A DNA stretch of 64,000 bases, from assembly GCA_945919795.1 (NCBI GenBank), contig CAMEJJ010000019.1, positions 1 through 64,000 on the forward strand. The letters run 5' to 3'. A program made the position numbers and the translations under genes. Positions 22,841-53,400 of the stretch are shown one piece after another (the stretch's first letter is position 1; every line of letters starts with the position of its first letter). The stretch comes from an uncultured Lachnospiraceae bacterium. Its GTDB lineage: Bacteria; Bacillota; Clostridia; Lachnospirales; Lachnospiraceae. The notes beneath the pieces were generated by a model, which saw nothing but the letters and a program-made list of their open reading frames with translations, searched no databases and was not told the origin of the DNA.

Positions 22841-23251
22841 CTATGATTTTGAAGCTTCATATTCTGAAATTGTCTGTTCTAAAATCTCACATGCCGTTTC
22901 TACAGTATTTAAGCAACGAGTTTCTTTACTAAATGACTGCGGTTTAATATCTTTACACAAATGGGAACCATATTTTTCTTGAAATTTCTTCATAAGCAGA
23001 ACCGTAACCGGTCTGATATCCTCACTTTCATGTGCATTCTTCTCAATATATTTCATAGACAAAATGGAAGCAGCACTCAAAATGGCACCACAGGTATTAC
23101 CGCACTGAATACCGGCTCCGAAAACGCCCAACATTTTCATATCTTCATCATGCAGACCAAGATTATAGTAATCATTTCCCGCACGGATGATAGTTTCCGC
23201 ACAATTATAATTTCCGTCAAAATAGTATTTACCGATTTCGTCTTTTAACAT
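22841..23251 (-). CDS. C_GCAxxG_C_C family putative redox protein
   Basis: Members of this family have a conserved Cys pattern (here NCAETI, then GIQCGNTCGAI and later cysteines) and are thought to be membrane-associated or cytosolic redox proteins, but no function is proven. The 136 aa are all-helical by appearance. GGAG lies 7 nt before the ATG. It is inserted between nrnA and truB, which are normally adjacent, and starts only 24 nt after the nrnA terminator stem with no clear promoter. Confidence 0.82.
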   Translation of the reverse strand: MLKDEIGKYYFDGNYNCAETIIRAGNDYYNLGLHDEDMKMLGVFGAGIQCGNTCGAILSAASILSMKYIEKNAHESEDIRPVTVLLMKKFQEKYGSHLCKDIKPQSFSKETRCLNTVETACEILEQTISEYEASKS

Positions 23252-23270
23252 CTTTTCTCTCCCATTTTAT

Positions 23271-23302
23271 AAAGAAAGGGCCGGTTTTAAGCGACCCTTT
23301 GT
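23271..23302 (-). terminator. Terminator after nrnA
   Basis: AAAGGG-T-CG and CG-G-CCCTTT form a 9-bp stem with a T-G pair, followed by CTTTATAAAA. The short U tract suggests partial termination, allowing some flow into truB-ribF. Confidence 0.6.
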
Positions 23303-23320
23303 TAAATTATTAGTTGTATC

Positions 23321-24283
23321 TTAAATTTGCTTTTTTATTTCCGTCAGCAGCTTATGAATCATAGTATTTTTATCTCCTGACATCGTACATCCGGCAGCTC
23401 TCACATGTCCACCACCGCCAAAAACAGAACAAACTGCCGAAACATCAACATATTCCTTACTGCGTAAACTTCCTTTAAAAGTGCCATCTTCATTTTCTCT
23501 TAACAAAATAGCAACATCAACACCTTTGACATATCGCATCTGACTGACAACACCTTCAAAATCCTTAGCATCTACTTGTAAACGGTTCATATCTTCCATC
23601 GTTACAACCATGAAACAAGCCAAACCATCTAAAGAAAGCTCACAATTTTGAAGTACATATCCCAACAGCTTTGACTGTGCATATGTTTTTTCATAAAACG
23701 TCTTTTCAATCAGCTTTGGAAAATCAAAGCCATAACCAATCAGCCATGCAGCGATCTCCAAGGTTTTCGGTGATGTATTGGAATACTGAAAAACGCCGCT
23801 ATCCTGAATGATGCCAAAATACAATGTCTCTGCAAGATCTATGTCCATGAAAGAATTATCCGGATCTGCATATCGGATTAAATCCGCCACAAGTTCACTT
23901 GCTGAACTCGCTTTCGCGTCAATATAACAAGCATCACCAATTCCTTCATTAGTAATATGATGATCAATATTAATTTTTATATCTGCATCCACAAAATAAG
24001 GATAGGCATCACCAATTCGGTCTTTTTCGGGAACAGAATCCGCAACAATAAAGACATCGTAATGTTGTCCGTCATTTTTTCTCACAATCTCAGAGACACC
24101 CTTTATAAAAGCATAAGCTTCGGGAACCTCTTCAATACGGACATGAATCTGCTTATCGGGATAGGCATTTTTCAAGAATTGCCAGAGCGCCATGGTAGAA
24201 CCGACACAATCTCCATCCGGACGAATGTGCCCGCTGATACCGATAGCATCTGCATTTTTGCATAATTCCAACAAATTGATCAT
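23321..24283 (-). CDS. nrnA: Bifunctional oligoribonuclease / PAP phosphatase (DHH family)
   Basis: NrnA degrades 2-5 nt RNA and removes phosphate from pAp. The DHH motif is in KINIDHHITNEG near residue 105, and the DHHA1 domain ends in GGGGHVRAAGC. The 320 aa are standard. Its ATG overlaps the rbfA stop (ATGA), the usual infB-rbfA-nrnA order. Confidence 0.94.
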   Translation of the reverse strand: MINLLELCKNADAIGISGHIRPDGDCVGSTMALWQFLKNAYPDKQIHVRIEEVPEAYAFIKGVSEIVRKNDGQHYDVFIVADSVPEKDRIGDAYPYFVDADIKINIDHHITNEGIGDACYIDAKASSASELVADLIRYADPDNSFMDIDLAETLYFGIIQDSGVFQYSNTSPKTLEIAAWLIGYGFDFPKLIEKTFYEKTYAQSKLLGYVLQNCELSLDGLACFMVVTMEDMNRLQVDAKDFEGVVSQMRYVKGVDVAILLRENEDGTFKGSLRSKEYVDVSAVCSVFGGGGHVRAAGCTMSGDKNTMIHKLLTEIKKQI

Positions 24284-30008: not shown

Positions 30009-30080
30009 CAGCTTGTAGGGGAATCGAACCCCTGATTCCGCCGTGAGAGGGCGGCGTCTTAACCTCTTGACCAACAAGCC
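30009..30080 (-). tRNA. tRNA-Glu (anticodon CUC)
   Basis: The minus strand gives a full cloverleaf of 72 nt: acceptor GGCTTGT with ACAAGCT (G1-U72 wobble), D arm with GGTCAAGAGGTTAAG, anticodon stem CCGCC/GGCGG with loop CTCTCAC and anticodon CTC, and T arm with GGTTCGATTCC. The discriminator is G. CCA is not encoded, so it must be added by the CCA enzyme. It is a lone tRNA between a methyltransferase gene and the rimP operon. Confidence 0.93.
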
Positions 30081-30933: not shown

Positions 30934-30967
30934 ATTTTATTCCTATTACATAGAATGATGTATGTGG

Positions 30968-31063
30968 ATTGCTACATTGCTACGCAATTCTCGCAATCCA
31001 CGAACACCTCATACTACCATAAAATGCCGTATTAACGCCATTTTATTCCGTATTCGGTGTTCA
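30968..31063 (-). repeat. Two tandem hairpins downstream of polC
   Basis: Hairpin 1 runs from GAACACC (overlapping the polC stop) to GGTGTTC, with inner arms ATAAAATG/CATTTTAT. Hairpin 2 has GTGGATTGC/GCAATCCAC with an inner ATTGC-GTA-GCAAT stem. CATAC/GTATG can pair across them. Neither has a U-run, so this is not a standard terminator. Confidence 0.6.
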
Positions 31064-34000
31064 GGATGTCATAAAATCAAACAAACTAAACTGGTTGGAA
31101 ATCGGAATATCTCCGAGTAGATTCATCTCTGCCATTTTTTCCGCAGTCGTCTTGGAAATTTTACCACGCTCGCATAAATCGTCTCGGGATAAAAAGGGTC
31201 CGTTTTTGGCGGCTTCCATCAGAGATTCTGCTGCCGAATCACCCATTCCGTCAATGCTGTTAAAGGATGGCATGATTTTTCCATCCACAATCTGGAACAA
31301 TCTGGAATGTGCTTTATAGATATCAATCGGTACAAATTCAAAGCCACGGGCATACATTTCCTTAACAATACGCAAGTCTCTTAACGAATCCTCTTCTTTT
31401 TTCGATAAATCATCTTTTCTGGAATTGTAGTCTTCGAGTGTTGCATCAATTTTTCCAATTCCCTGGCACATGATTTCATAAGAAAAACCGCTCGCACGGA
31501 TACTGAAATATGCCGTATAATAAGCCAACGGATAATTTACCTTAAAATAAGCAACTCGCCATGCCATCATAACATAGGCAGCCGCATGCGCTTTCGGGAA
31601 CATGTATTTGATTTGCTCACAGGACCAGATATACCAGTCCGGAACATCATGCTCCTTCATCAACGCTTTCCACTCAGCCCAGTTTGCACACTTTCCTTTT
31701 GCCACGGTTCCCTTACGAACTGCTTCCATAATCTTAAAAGCGGTACTTTCATCCAATCCCTTGTCAATCAGATAAATCATAATATCGTCACGGGTACAGA
31801 TTGCTGTGGAAATGGTAGCTTTCCCTTCCTGAATCAATGTCTGGGCATTGTTTAACCATACATCGGTTCCGTGTGCCAGTCCCGCAATACGCTCTAAATC
31901 GGTAAAGGAAGTCGGCTTGGTATCCAAAAGCATTTGCATAGCAAACTCCGTACCAAATTCCGGTATTCCCAAAGAGCCCAGTAAAATTCCGCCGATATCA
32001 TCCGGTGTAATCTTTAATGCCTCCGTATTTTGGAACAGGGACATGACGTCTTTATCGTCCAACGGAATCTTAACCGGATCAACACCGGTCAGATCCTGAA
32101 GCATACGAATCATCGTTGGGTCCAGATGTCCTAAAATATCCAGTTTCAAAAGATTGTGATCAATTTTATGATAATCAAAATGGGTAGTAACGATATCTGT
32201 TGTCATATCGTTTGCCGGACGCTGAACCGGTGTAAAAGAATTGATATCCTCACCTACCGGCAAAACAACAATTCCACCAGGATGCTGACCGGTAGAACGC
32301 TTTACTCCCGTACAACCAACGGAAATACGGTCAATTTCACATCCACGTTTTGAAATACCACGCTCTTCAAAATATTTACGCACAAAACCATATGCCGTCT
32401 TATCGGCAACCGAACCAATGGTTCCGGCACGATAAGTCTGTCCGTATCCAAAAATAACTTCCGTATATTTATGCGCTTTACTCTGGTATTCATTGGAGAA
32501 GTTCAAGTCAATATCCGGCTCTTTATCCCCCTTAAATCCTAGGAAGGTTTCAAACGGAATGTCAAATCCGTCTTTTACCAGTAATTCTCCGCACTGCGGA
32601 CACATTTTATCCGGCATATCACACCCGGATTTACCGGAGTATGCTCTGACTTCATCAGAAGTAAAATCATAATAATGACATTTTTTACAATAATAATGCG
32701 GACTGAGAGAATTTACCTCTGTAATTCCGGAAAGATAGGCAACAAAAGAAGATCCAACCGATCCTCTCGAACCAACCAGATAACCGTCTTCCACAGACTT
32801 CCACACTAACTTCTGGGCAATAATATACATAACGGCAAATCCGTTTTTGATAATAGCATTCAATTCCTTTTCCATACGTTTTTCAACAATTTCAGGAAGA
32901 ACCTCGCCATATATCTCATGTGCCTTGTTGTGACAGATTGTGGTCAGTATCTCATCCGAATTTGGAATAATGGGCGGACTCTTATCAGGTCTGACCGGAT
33001 CAATCGATTCAATGCAATCCGCAATCAGATTGGTATTCGTAATAACTACCTCTCTTGCTTTATCACTTCCAAGATATTGGAATTCCTCTAACATCTCTTC
33101 CGTAGTACGAAGATACAAAGGAGCCTGCTCTTCGTCCTTATACCCCTGGCCCGCCTGGATAATTCTTCTGTATATTTCATCTTCCGGATTCAGGAAATGG
33201 ACATCACAGGTTGCACAGACCGGTTTATGGAGTGCTTCTCCGATTTCTACAACCTTGCGGTTTAATTCCATCAAATCCTCCATGGATTCAATATTCTCAT
33301 GTCGATCCGATTCAATCATAAACTTGTTGTTACCAAGCGGCTGAATTTCCAGATAATCATAAAAGCCGGCGATCTTATACAATTCGGCATCGCTTTTTCC
33401 ATCCAACATGGCGCGGAACAATTCGCCCGCCTCACAGGCGCTGCCCAAGATCAGGCCTTCCCGGTATTTTTGCAAAAGGCTTCTGGGAATCCTTGGTTTT
33501 TTATAAAAATAATCGATATGGGATTGGGAAATCAATCGATAAAGATTAATGCGTCCCACTTCATTTTTAGCCAGAATAATAATGTGATAATATGGAAGCT
33601 TTTTGACCGTATCCTTGTTATCCTCAGCTAACTGATTAATATCCATCAGTTTCGTTACGCCCTTTGCTTCCAGCATAGGTAAAAACTTCACAAAAATCTC
33701 TGCTGTCGCTTCCGCATCATCCACTGCGCGGTGATGATTTTCCAAAGACACACCCATAGACTTGGCACAGGCATCCAACGTATGCTTTGCCTGATTTGGC
33801 AAAAGGATTCTGGCGATTCCTACGGTATCAACAATGGTAAACTCTCTCAAAAGATTTTGCCTTGCAGCATTTTCCTTGATGAAACTCATATCAAACGATG
33901 CATTGTGGGCAACCATGACACAGTCCTTGGAAAATTCCAAAAACTCAGGAAGTACTTCTTCAATGCCCGGTGCATCCATCACATCATGATCGGTAATGGA

Positions 34001-50359: not shown

Positions 50360-51076
50360 TTATACTCTGCTACGTTTTTTCCGCTCTTCCTCAAAAATAA
50401 ACCGAATAATGGCTTCTCTTTGATTGCTCAATATGCTTGTAAATTTCAGACGATGTTCGAATTCACCTTTTTGATTATCATTTTCCCTACAACTTAAGAC
50501 TTCTCCGGCAAGTTCATACACGGTTTCCTTGCCATGTGAATGAAGACTAAATAACAATGCAATCTGTTCTCCTACCGTAAAGGCAGTCTGAGAAACAAAT
50601 TTCAGGCCCCCACCGCTGATATCGCGAATTTCACATTTCTTCATCATCAATCCCTGCTGCATATGGAAATTGTTCTTTTCTAAATCTTTCATTTCTTCTT
50701 CCATCAGTGTTCTGGCCTTTAACGGCAGGCTGATAGAATAACGATAATATTCCCTGCGCTGGAATTTCTCCAGTTCCGAAGTCACTTCAGCCAGCAAAAT
50801 ATAAACATTATTACTTTTATAACGATCTGCAATCCGAACAAAACACTGATATAACCCCTTCTGGGTATAAAAACAAAACTGATACTGACCATCTTTAGGG
50901 AGCAATATCAATTTGGAACCTTCCATCGGCATTAAAATCTCAAGCTGGTCATCATCAAGGATGTCATACACCTTGGAAGAATATACTTTTTTATTGGATG
51001 CCGATCCTAAAATAGCTCTTTCCACAGCCATGATATCAATTTTTTCACCGGGCCTTACTAATTCTGTCAAAGTCAT
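50360..51076 (-). CDS. YcgR-like PilZ protein (c-di-GMP flagellar brake)
   Basis: A 238-aa protein with an N-terminal YcgR-type domain and a C-terminal PilZ domain. The c-di-GMP motifs RREYYR and DISGGGLKF are intact. Such proteins slow the motor or bias turning when c-di-GMP rises. ATG 51076 with GAGGAG 7 nt upstream is preferred over the track start at 51112. It lies 46 nt after a long palindrome. Confidence 0.9.
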   Translation of the reverse strand: MTLTELVRPGEKIDIMAVERAILGSASNKKVYSSKVYDILDDDQLEILMPMEGSKLILLPKDGQYQFCFYTQKGLYQCFVRIADRYKSNNVYILLAEVTSELEKFQRREYYRYSISLPLKARTLMEEEMKDLEKNNFHMQQGLMMKKCEIRDISGGGLKFVSQTAFTVGEQIALLFSLHSHGKETVYELAGEVLSCRENDNQKGEFEHRLKFTSILSNQREAIIRFIFEEERKKRSRV

Positions 51077-51122
51077 AGTTTTTCTCCTCTGTTCTGGGGG
51101 GATATGAATCATTTTTTTGGTT

Positions 51123-51270
51123 AGGTGTCTGAGAAATTTATATATTCTATCACAGACGCGTTCTCACTTGGATGACAACGTAGCAGTACTAAATTCGCAA
51201 TAAATTGCTCATTAAGTGCTGACGTTGTCATACAGTCTGTGAGTAGAATATATGAATTTCTCAGACACCT
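51123..51270. repeat. 148-bp near-perfect inverted repeat between flhG and the PilZ gene
   Basis: The outer arms AGGTGTCTGAGAAATT and their complement continue as an almost perfect 33-bp stem (one mismatch, one bulge), then an asymmetric loop, then TGACAACGT arms and CAGTACT/AGTGCTG arms around GCAATAAATTGC. It contains no ORF. It could be a MITE-like element or a stable mRNA hairpin inside the operon. Confidence 0.88.
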
Positions 51271-51281
51271 TCGTAAAATAT

Positions 51282-52157
51282 TTATTTCTTGGTTATAATA
51301 TGGGAAAAGAATGCTGCCATTCCTCGTTTCTGTGGTAATAAAGACTGTTCGCCATACATCAGTACCTGTGCAATTTCCTGATATGCCTTTGCTGACTTTG
51401 CATTCGGATTAGCTAAAGATACCGGTGTCTGCTGCATAACCGCCTGACTAAGATGCGAATCCTGCGGTACACTTCCCAAATAAGAAATGGGCAGTTTCAA
51501 ATATCTCGCAACCACTGCATTCAGCTTTGTAAACAGGGCTTTTCCCTCTTCCTTGCTATCCACTTTATTTGCCATCACCTTAATCTGCGAAGTCTCAGAT
51601 GAAAACCTGTCATGGCGGTTTAACGCCTTTAACAGAGAATAGGAATCTGTAATGGAAGTGGGTTCCGGTGTTGTTACCAGAATAATTTCTCCACTTGCAA
51701 CCAAAAATTCCAAAACGGCATCAGAGATTCCGGCTCCGGTATCCACAATCACGATATCCGCAATCGCATCAAGTTCTGCCAAATTCTGTATAATATAAAT
51801 CAAATATTCTCTGCTTAAATTGGAAAGACCTGCAATTCCGGAACCTCCGGAAATAAAGCCGACTCCTCCCGGTCCCCAGGTAATGATATCCTTTATATTT
51901 TTCCCCTGGTAAATCAAATCACACAAATTGTGACGGGGAACCGTGCCAAACATGATTTCAATATTGGCAAGTCCAAAATCGGCATCCAAAATAATGACAC
52001 GCTGTCCCATCTGCCGAAATTGAATTGCAAGATTAATGGCTGTATTGGATTTGCCCACACCACCTTTTCCGCTTGTTACCGTAATAACTCTGGCAACCGG
52101 CCGTTGGGGTTGCTGATTCATTTTAATGATATTTCTTAAGTTTTCTGCCTGATCCAT
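51282..52157 (-). CDS. flhG: Flagellar number regulator FlhG (MinD-like ATPase)
   Basis: A MinD/ParA-type ATPase that controls flagellar number and placement with FlhF. The deviant Walker A is TSGKGGVGKSN near 30, with VIVDTGAG for Walker B. The track start adds residues inside flhF; ATG 52157 with AAGGAGG gives MDQAENLRNI and 291 aa. It follows flhF by 10 nt. Confidence 0.95.
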   Translation of the reverse strand: MDQAENLRNIIKMNQQPQRPVARVITVTSGKGGVGKSNTAINLAIQFRQMGQRVIILDADFGLANIEIMFGTVPRHNLCDLIYQGKNIKDIITWGPGGVGFISGGSGIAGLSNLSREYLIYIIQNLAELDAIADIVIVDTGAGISDAVLEFLVASGEIILVTTPEPTSITDSYSLLKALNRHDRFSSETSQIKVMANKVDSKEEGKALFTKLNAVVARYLKLPISYLGSVPQDSHLSQAVMQQTPVSLANPNAKSAKAYQEIAQVLMYGEQSLLPQKRGMAAFFSHIITKK

Positions 52158-52167
52158 ATCTGCCTCC

Positions 52168-53400
52168 TTAAGAAATTTTATTTCCGCCAAGCAACATTTT
52201 GACTGTTTTTTGCGGGTTGAAATCTTCCATATCATCAGGAACGTTTTGACCACATGTCACATAGGAAAGCTTTGCTCCTGTATGGAGTTTCAAATTTAAC
52301 AGATTACCCAAGCAGGTGGTCTCGTCAAGCTTGGTGAAAATCAATTTATACTGGGTTATGGTTGCATAAGCATCCGCAATACTCAGTAAATCTTTATATT
52401 TTGTGGTTGCACTGACAACCAGATAAACTTCTTTTTCAATGGACGGATCAACAGCCATGATAAATTCATTCATAGCATCCCGTTGTTTTTCATTGTGATG
52501 TGAATGACCTGCCGTATCCATAAAAATATAGTCATAATCCTTATATTTCTCGATTTCCTTCTGCATTTCATCCGTTGTATAGATGATACAAAACGGAACA
52601 TTCAAAATATTGGCATAAGTACGAAGCTGTTCAGCGGCTGCAATACGATAGGTATCCATGGTAAACAATGCTACTTTTTTATTTTGTTCCACAGAATAAC
52701 GGGATGCGATTTTTGCAATCGTTGTTGTCTTTCCAACTCCTGTGGGACCCACGAAAAATACGACCTTGGGACCTTTTTTAGCCGGTGTTATTCCCTCCGG
52801 CTGTTCAAATTTTAATATCATTTTTTGATACACATTGGACAGCATAAAATCAATCGGCATATTGGGCTTAATTACCGAATCCAGTTCATCAATAATCTGA
52901 TTTGCATAGGTCTCCGCAATTTCGTTTTCAAGCATGGTATTGTATAACAGTTTTAAAAAACGGACATTGCTGTTTTCATCTTCATCTCTGTCTTCTTTTT
53001 TGACCGTTTTATTTTCCACAACATTTTTTTGCGGTTCGTCCTTTTGTAATTGTTTTTCAATCAAATTCTGCAGACTATCCAGTTTCTTCTCAAGGACTTT
53101 ATCATTGCTACTATCATCCGACACCGACATTGAGGACGGTACAACCTGTTCCTGCTTTTCGGAAGAAACCGTTCTTTTTTCAGGAATCGGCTTAACCACA
53201 TCTTTTTTTACGGGTAAAATACGGTCCGGTTCTTCCTCCAAGGCAACGGTTACCTCAATGGATTTCGATTTTAAGAAAGAAAAGAAGCCTTTTTTCTTCA
53301 CCTCTTTTACATTCATGACAACGACACCGTTTCCAAGCTCCTTTTTTGCGGCTTCGATTGCATCGTTTTCTGTTTTTCCCTGGAATTTTTTAATAATCAT
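52168..53400 (-). CDS. flhF: Flagellar SRP-like GTPase FlhF
   Basis: An SRP-family GTPase that places the flagellum. The N-terminal basic domain (1-130), NG domain with GPTGVGKTTTIAKIA near 220 and DTAGHSHHNEKQR are visible. The 410 aa are normal. Its ATG abuts the flhA stop. Confidence 0.96.
   Translation of the reverse strand: MIIKKFQGKTENDAIEAAKKELGNGVVVMNVKEVKKKGFFSFLKSKSIEVTVALEEEPDRILPVKKDVVKPIPEKRTVSSEKQEQVVPSSMSVSDDSSNDKVLEKKLDSLQNLIEKQLQKDEPQKNVVENKTVKKEDRDEDENSNVRFLKLLYNTMLENEIAETYANQIIDELDSVIKPNMPIDFMLSNVYQKMILKFEQPEGITPAKKGPKVVFFVGPTGVGKTTTIAKIASRYSVEQNKKVALFTMDTYRIAAAEQLRTYANILNVPFCIIYTTDEMQKEIEKYKDYDYIFMDTAGHSHHNEKQRDAMNEFIMAVDPSIEKEVYLVVSATTKYKDLLSIADAYATITQYKLIFTKLDETTCLGNLLNLKLHTGAKLSYVTCGQNVPDDMEDFNPQKTVKMLLGGNKIS

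Follow-up and report, generated by a model that had tools for sequence, protein, structure and literature searches.

Enterobacterial ERIC sequences are imperfect palindromes of ~130 bases that are intergenic and transcribed, and their insertion at 3' ends has been reported to alter RNA levels (PMC10969869, PMC3049150). In Streptococcus pneumoniae, the BOX, RUP and SPRITE repeats are small, dispersed intergenic elements that lie near genes and have predicted RNA folds, with SPRITE situated near 3' termini (PMC3049150). The Correia elements, or NEMIS, of Neisseria are long transcribed palindromes which serve as RNase III substrates (PMC10969869).

A palindrome from an uncultured Lachnospiraceae bacterium can be set beside these systems. 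With moderate confidence, we read it as a member of a family of dispersed non-coding repeats in the Lachnospiraceae, i.e., an ERIC/BOX-like hairpin placed between cistrons or at the 3' end of an mRNA, with a core that is presumably the part recognised by the agent that spreads or uses it. To judge from Rfam and the literature searched, the family is undescribed: no Rfam family matched at gathering or relaxed thresholds, other than chance matches of the microRNA type, and no prior description was found in the literature, subscription journals and preprints being outside the coverage of that search.

A long palindrome between flhG and a PilZ-domain gene

The window, i.e., the whole stretch of 64,000 nucleotides analysed, carries at 51123-51270 a near-perfect palindrome of 148 bases within the fla/che operon, which is its strongest inverted repeat on a search with 12-base seeds and a span within 200 bases. 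The original prediction, made from the letters alone, had described near-perfect pairing continuing inward, a very stable hairpin and a region in which nothing codes, all of which is borne out. The 35/36 bases of the two arms are paired with one mismatch and one bulged C, after which the inner blocks pair, and the predicted RNA fold reaches -79.9 kcal/mol as against -32.7 +/- 3.5 in shuffled sequences (z = -13.4). No gene crosses the palindrome, which is situated between the flhG stop codon and the ribosome site of the PilZ gene. The fla/che genes are transcribed from the minus strand. The features of the locus are:

51123-51270, no strand assigned: whole element, near-perfect palindrome of 148 bases, from pairing, fold and BLAST copies
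51123-51157, no strand assigned: left outer arm, variable in sequence among copies with pairing kept, from the comparison of copies
51235-51270, no strand assigned: right outer arm, from the comparison of copies
51136-51263, minus strand: match to covariance model R1 at 114.9 bits, the window copy itself belonging to the alignment behind the model; the strand is that of the GNRA reading and the transcribed strand of the fla/che genes
51160-51167, minus strand: mini-hairpin GT-GAGA-AC
51188-51198, no strand assigned: conserved box 1, ACTAAATTCGC on the plus strand, from the copy alignment
51199-51206, no strand assigned: variable terminal loop or hairpin, 2-30 bases in other copies, from the copy alignment
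51207-51217, no strand assigned: conserved box 2, GCTCATTAAGT on the plus strand, from the copy alignment
51282-52253, minus strand: upstream gene flhG, whose stop codon precedes the element by 11 bases in the direction of the transcript
50360-51112, minus strand: downstream PilZ-domain gene, named after the original sequence-only prediction; it probably starts at the ATG after GAGGAG near 51077

Elsewhere in the window, the minus strand at 23886-23997 gives a weak match to the same model (14.4 bits, E = 0.02), which could be either a degenerate copy or due to chance. A Clostridiales-1 RNA (RF01699) lies on the minus strand at 30956-31079, with a tRNA nearby at 30009-30080.

Copies in the genome and at orthologous sites

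The search for further copies and empty sites that had been proposed with the original prediction yields both, with many copies in the own genome and in relatives. By BLAST, the own genome (3.1 Mb) contains about 15 nearly complete copies and several partial ones; the covariance model returns 18 matches there, 15 of them strong and intact. Two congeners, G003 and G005, have similar copy numbers.

The site in the window is occupied in G003, retains only the left arm in G005, and lacks the element in the more distant congeners G001, G002, G004, G006 and G007. Since G003 is occupied despite being more distant from the window's genome than G005, the state in G005 is best read as a deletion between ATTTAT repeats. 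For the same reason, we rejected the possibility that the lone arm in G005 is a pre-insertion site, with the arms derived from the target. The loss in this closest congener at the locus, together with the absence from the five more distant ones, implies that the element is dispensable between flhG and the PilZ gene and, on these genomes, that it does not define the fla/che operon.

Other orthologous sites reveal complete or partial losses among the congeners; at one, which maps to window positions 23092-23453, G005 has probably gained the element. The original prediction saw no target duplication by eye, and indeed none that is clean is visible at the palindrome or at the other orthologous sites compared (~8 in total, several of which are deletions).

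Three further loci are of note in their own right. At one (L027), G005 has the element and the window's genome (G000, L353) has a different long palindrome in the same intergenic place. At another (L012), the element seems to replace the last codons of a response-regulator-like gene, with insertion remnants in congeners. Finally, a copy with 1.2 kb of flank (L033/L034) is 100% identical between G003 and G005, which differ by ~10% at other loci; this points to either recent transfer or contamination.

A conserved core within variable but paired arms

Over the central 105 bases, most copies of the own genome share 94-100% identity and a few are near 90%, and the outer arms vary in sequence with pairing maintained. 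Each copy would form a long hairpin in which the arms retain pairing rather than sequence. At orthologous sites (L003/L028, L014/L225), the arms show matched changes, e.g., GTGTGGC/GCCACAC to GTGCGGC/GCCGCAC, which template switching within the hairpin could produce instead of selection. Conservation of the core does not always exceed that of the flanks, with core identity at 97-100% in some orthologous pairs and 92-95% in others; the latter differ mostly by a recurrent GTTGTC to GCCCAC change at several loci, a pattern that looks like exchange between copies.

Across 53 representative copies, 93% of cells pair and 16 of 24 pairs have changed on both sides. Cells with double changes number 148, as compared with a mean of 45.5 in shuffles (none of 500 reaching that number) and a maximum of 48 in slid controls, a covariation of the kind that marks structured RNA. 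On the minus strand, the loop of the mini-hairpin is GNRA in 50 of the 53 copies and both of its pairs covary. The minus-strand core can be read as an RNA with a three-way junction. It would comprise a mini-hairpin of two pairs of the GC-GNRA-GC type, a helix with a bulge of two bases, a U.U mismatch and, for most copies, G.A pairs in tandem, and the variable terminal hairpin. Model columns 47-95, which are C.A on the minus strand and U.G on the plus strand, favour the plus strand, and for this reason the minus strand is the likely but not proven folding strand. A DNA hairpin on the minus strand may be an alternative to the RNA fold.

This anatomy bears directly on the MITE-like insertion that had been proposed for the palindrome. 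The insertion-like part of that proposal stands, as the element is dispersed and has other copies with occupied and empty sites, but the MITE label does not. A classical MITE would be a non-autonomous DNA transposon whose ends are recognised by the transposase of a resident IS, and the family resembles one in being short, AT-rich, palindromic, non-coding, multi-copy and dispersed, in forming lineage-specific subfamilies and in its presence or absence at orthologous sites. Yet the copies share no common terminal inverted repeats, their ends being the least and their core the most conserved part; none of the sites compared shows a clear target duplication; and in 1.2 Mb of loci neither a matching transposase nor an autonomous version nor an ORF between the conserved boxes was found. 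Conservation of the core across genera would also be unusual for a decaying MITE. We therefore regard this explanation as unlikely. A search of the fetched loci for an autonomous form, with a gene enclosed by the boxes, gave only contig-edge halves and chance matches, and that reading was rejected.

Distribution across the Lachnospiraceae

A pattern made of the two boxes matches 31 of 397 genomes of the family, with 15 matches in the own genome and 297 in G024; the reversed pattern, run as a control on the same 397 genomes, gives none. The invariance of the boxes in the alignment is partly due to their use as the search pattern, and the covariance model provides a less biased sampling. Model R1 matches 99 of 220 family genomes (completeness >= 90%) in a survey that capped the matches counted near 15 per genome; copy numbers range from 1 to about 300. 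In G238, a genome missed by the box pattern, the tandem G.A part is replaced and the remaining core kept. In a phylum-wide sample of 160 genomes only two match R1, namely the own genome and one other, both of the same family. Among the matches listed in a scan of named records are many Lachnospiraceae assemblies; a few of those listed bear other labels, e.g., Selenomonadaceae or proteobacterium, and may be mislabelled or contaminated. The exact pattern has no copy in viral contigs.

A related tandem form of the box motif is seen in ribosomal-protein operons of several genera (L044, L054, L062, L069 and L048 near 1501), where it lies on either side of rpsH (ahead of S8, and in the gap from S8 to L6) as well as between rpsL and rpsG.

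Genomic placement and orientation

On simple ORF calls, made with no trained gene finder, 181 of 182 distinct copies lie outside long ORFs and one inside. Where a copy has two near neighbours (121 copies), these are co-directional in 97 cases, convergent in 15 and divergent in 9. The median distance from the upstream stop codon to the core box is 81-91 bases, so that the arm begins almost at the stop. The genome G209, in two contigs, contains 41 copies, and of 30 examined 22 are co-directional, six convergent and none divergent, with two overlapping ORF calls. The copies, being just downstream of stop codons and mostly between co-directional genes, are probably co-transcribed with them.

A very stable hairpin directly after a stop codon might first suggest intrinsic termination or attenuation of transcription between flhG and the che genes. 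Read on the transcribed strand, the stem is not directly followed by a T run, related copies reside inside ribosomal-protein operons of other genera, and most copies stand between co-directional genes, all of which makes this explanation highly improbable.

Orientation relative to the genes is not fixed (56 vs 41 overall, 13 vs 9 in G209), being balanced in the own genus but biased, in three genomes with many copies, towards the box strand as the transcribed one; the core can hence hardly be a strand-specific cis-regulator in all copies. Close neighbours of opposite orientation are arranged as plus then minus of the box motif in 12 of 12 cases. Such close inverted pairs occur at L083, L084, L097, L103, L106, L126, L142, L150, L165, L177 and L182; a composite element built from them was rejected, as the intervening sequence is not shared.

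Insertion in both orientations is also what would be expected if the element spread by way of RNA. Under this alternative, the core would be a structured RNA, hitherto undescribed, that brings about its own spread, either copied from RNA in a SINE-like manner or recognised as a folded strand by a partner, and has thereby reached ~45% of the sampled Lachnospiraceae genomes and ~300 copies in one of them, with the arms co-evolving in place so that pairing is preserved. We think this rather improbable. The SINE-like form, a retro-element whose core is a functional RNA acting in trans or on itself, e.g., as a processing or ribozyme-like module, is equally doubtful: the GNRA loop, the tandem G.A and U.U in most copies, the three-way junction, the strong covariation and the lack of a visible target duplication agree with it, but no promoter of its own is seen, the mid-core is replaceable, as in G238, and Rfam holds no relative.

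Movement as a REP-type element by a Y1 (RAYT/IS200-like) transposase acting on a folded single strand appears very unlikely. The imperfect hairpin with its adjoining mini-hairpin would suit such an enzyme; GC-GNRA-GC is known to form a very stable mini-hairpin in DNA too, and again no target duplication is seen at the compared sites. Nevertheless, Y1_Tnp is lacking in the own genome and occurs in ~14 of 21 genomes with the element as against ~16 of 19 without it, which indicates no Y1 link, and the copies of G209 show no replication-strand bias (19 leading vs 22 lagging, by hand count).

The wobble pairs of the arms are consistent with the ERIC/BOX-like hairpin that we favour. The ratio of G.U to A.C is 71:42 where the box strand is transcribed and 19:39 where the other strand is (Fisher p = 3e-4; p = 9e-4 on label shuffling within genome groups), i.e., the bias reverses with orientation and G.U is enriched on the strand transcribed by the host. 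As the observed ratio of 1.8 exceeds the mutation-only ratio of ~1.1-1.2 calculated from flank composition, selection on the transcript is favoured, albeit not proven, and the bias could be partly mutational. In cis, the hairpin would probably act in REP/ERIC-like fashion, altering how the mRNA on its upstream and downstream sides is processed or how stable it is, and at the locus in the window it would probably uncouple flhG from the PilZ-che part of the operon.

Implications and comparison with known systems

The family sits in a dominant family of gut bacteria, with related copies in ribosomal-protein and flagellar operons, and if it is transcribed the expression of many operons would be affected. 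In contrast to a MITE, the element is conserved in its interior and has ends that are free to change yet stay paired, and this anatomy opens the recognition of the core to direct testing.

The Correia/NEMIS elements are likewise long palindromes but are defined by their terminal repeats, whereas the ends of the Lachnospiraceae element vary. REP/BIME sequences with RAYT also form intercistronic hairpins with possible effects on mRNA; in comparison, the Lachnospiraceae element is longer, has a conserved core and shows no link to a Y1 transposase. With BOX, RUP and SPRITE it shares small size, dispersal, intergenic location and a predicted RNA fold. However, BOX has a modular build, and its proposed mover is an IS whose ends resemble it, of which no counterpart was found in the loci fetched here, and SPRITE has a T run that the Lachnospiraceae element is without. 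ERIC is comparable as an imperfect intergenic palindrome, but belongs to another host group and has no likeness in sequence, as judged by inspection; as compared with ERIC, the Lachnospiraceae element has a core conserved across many genera, enclosed by arms which vary in sequence and keep their pairing.
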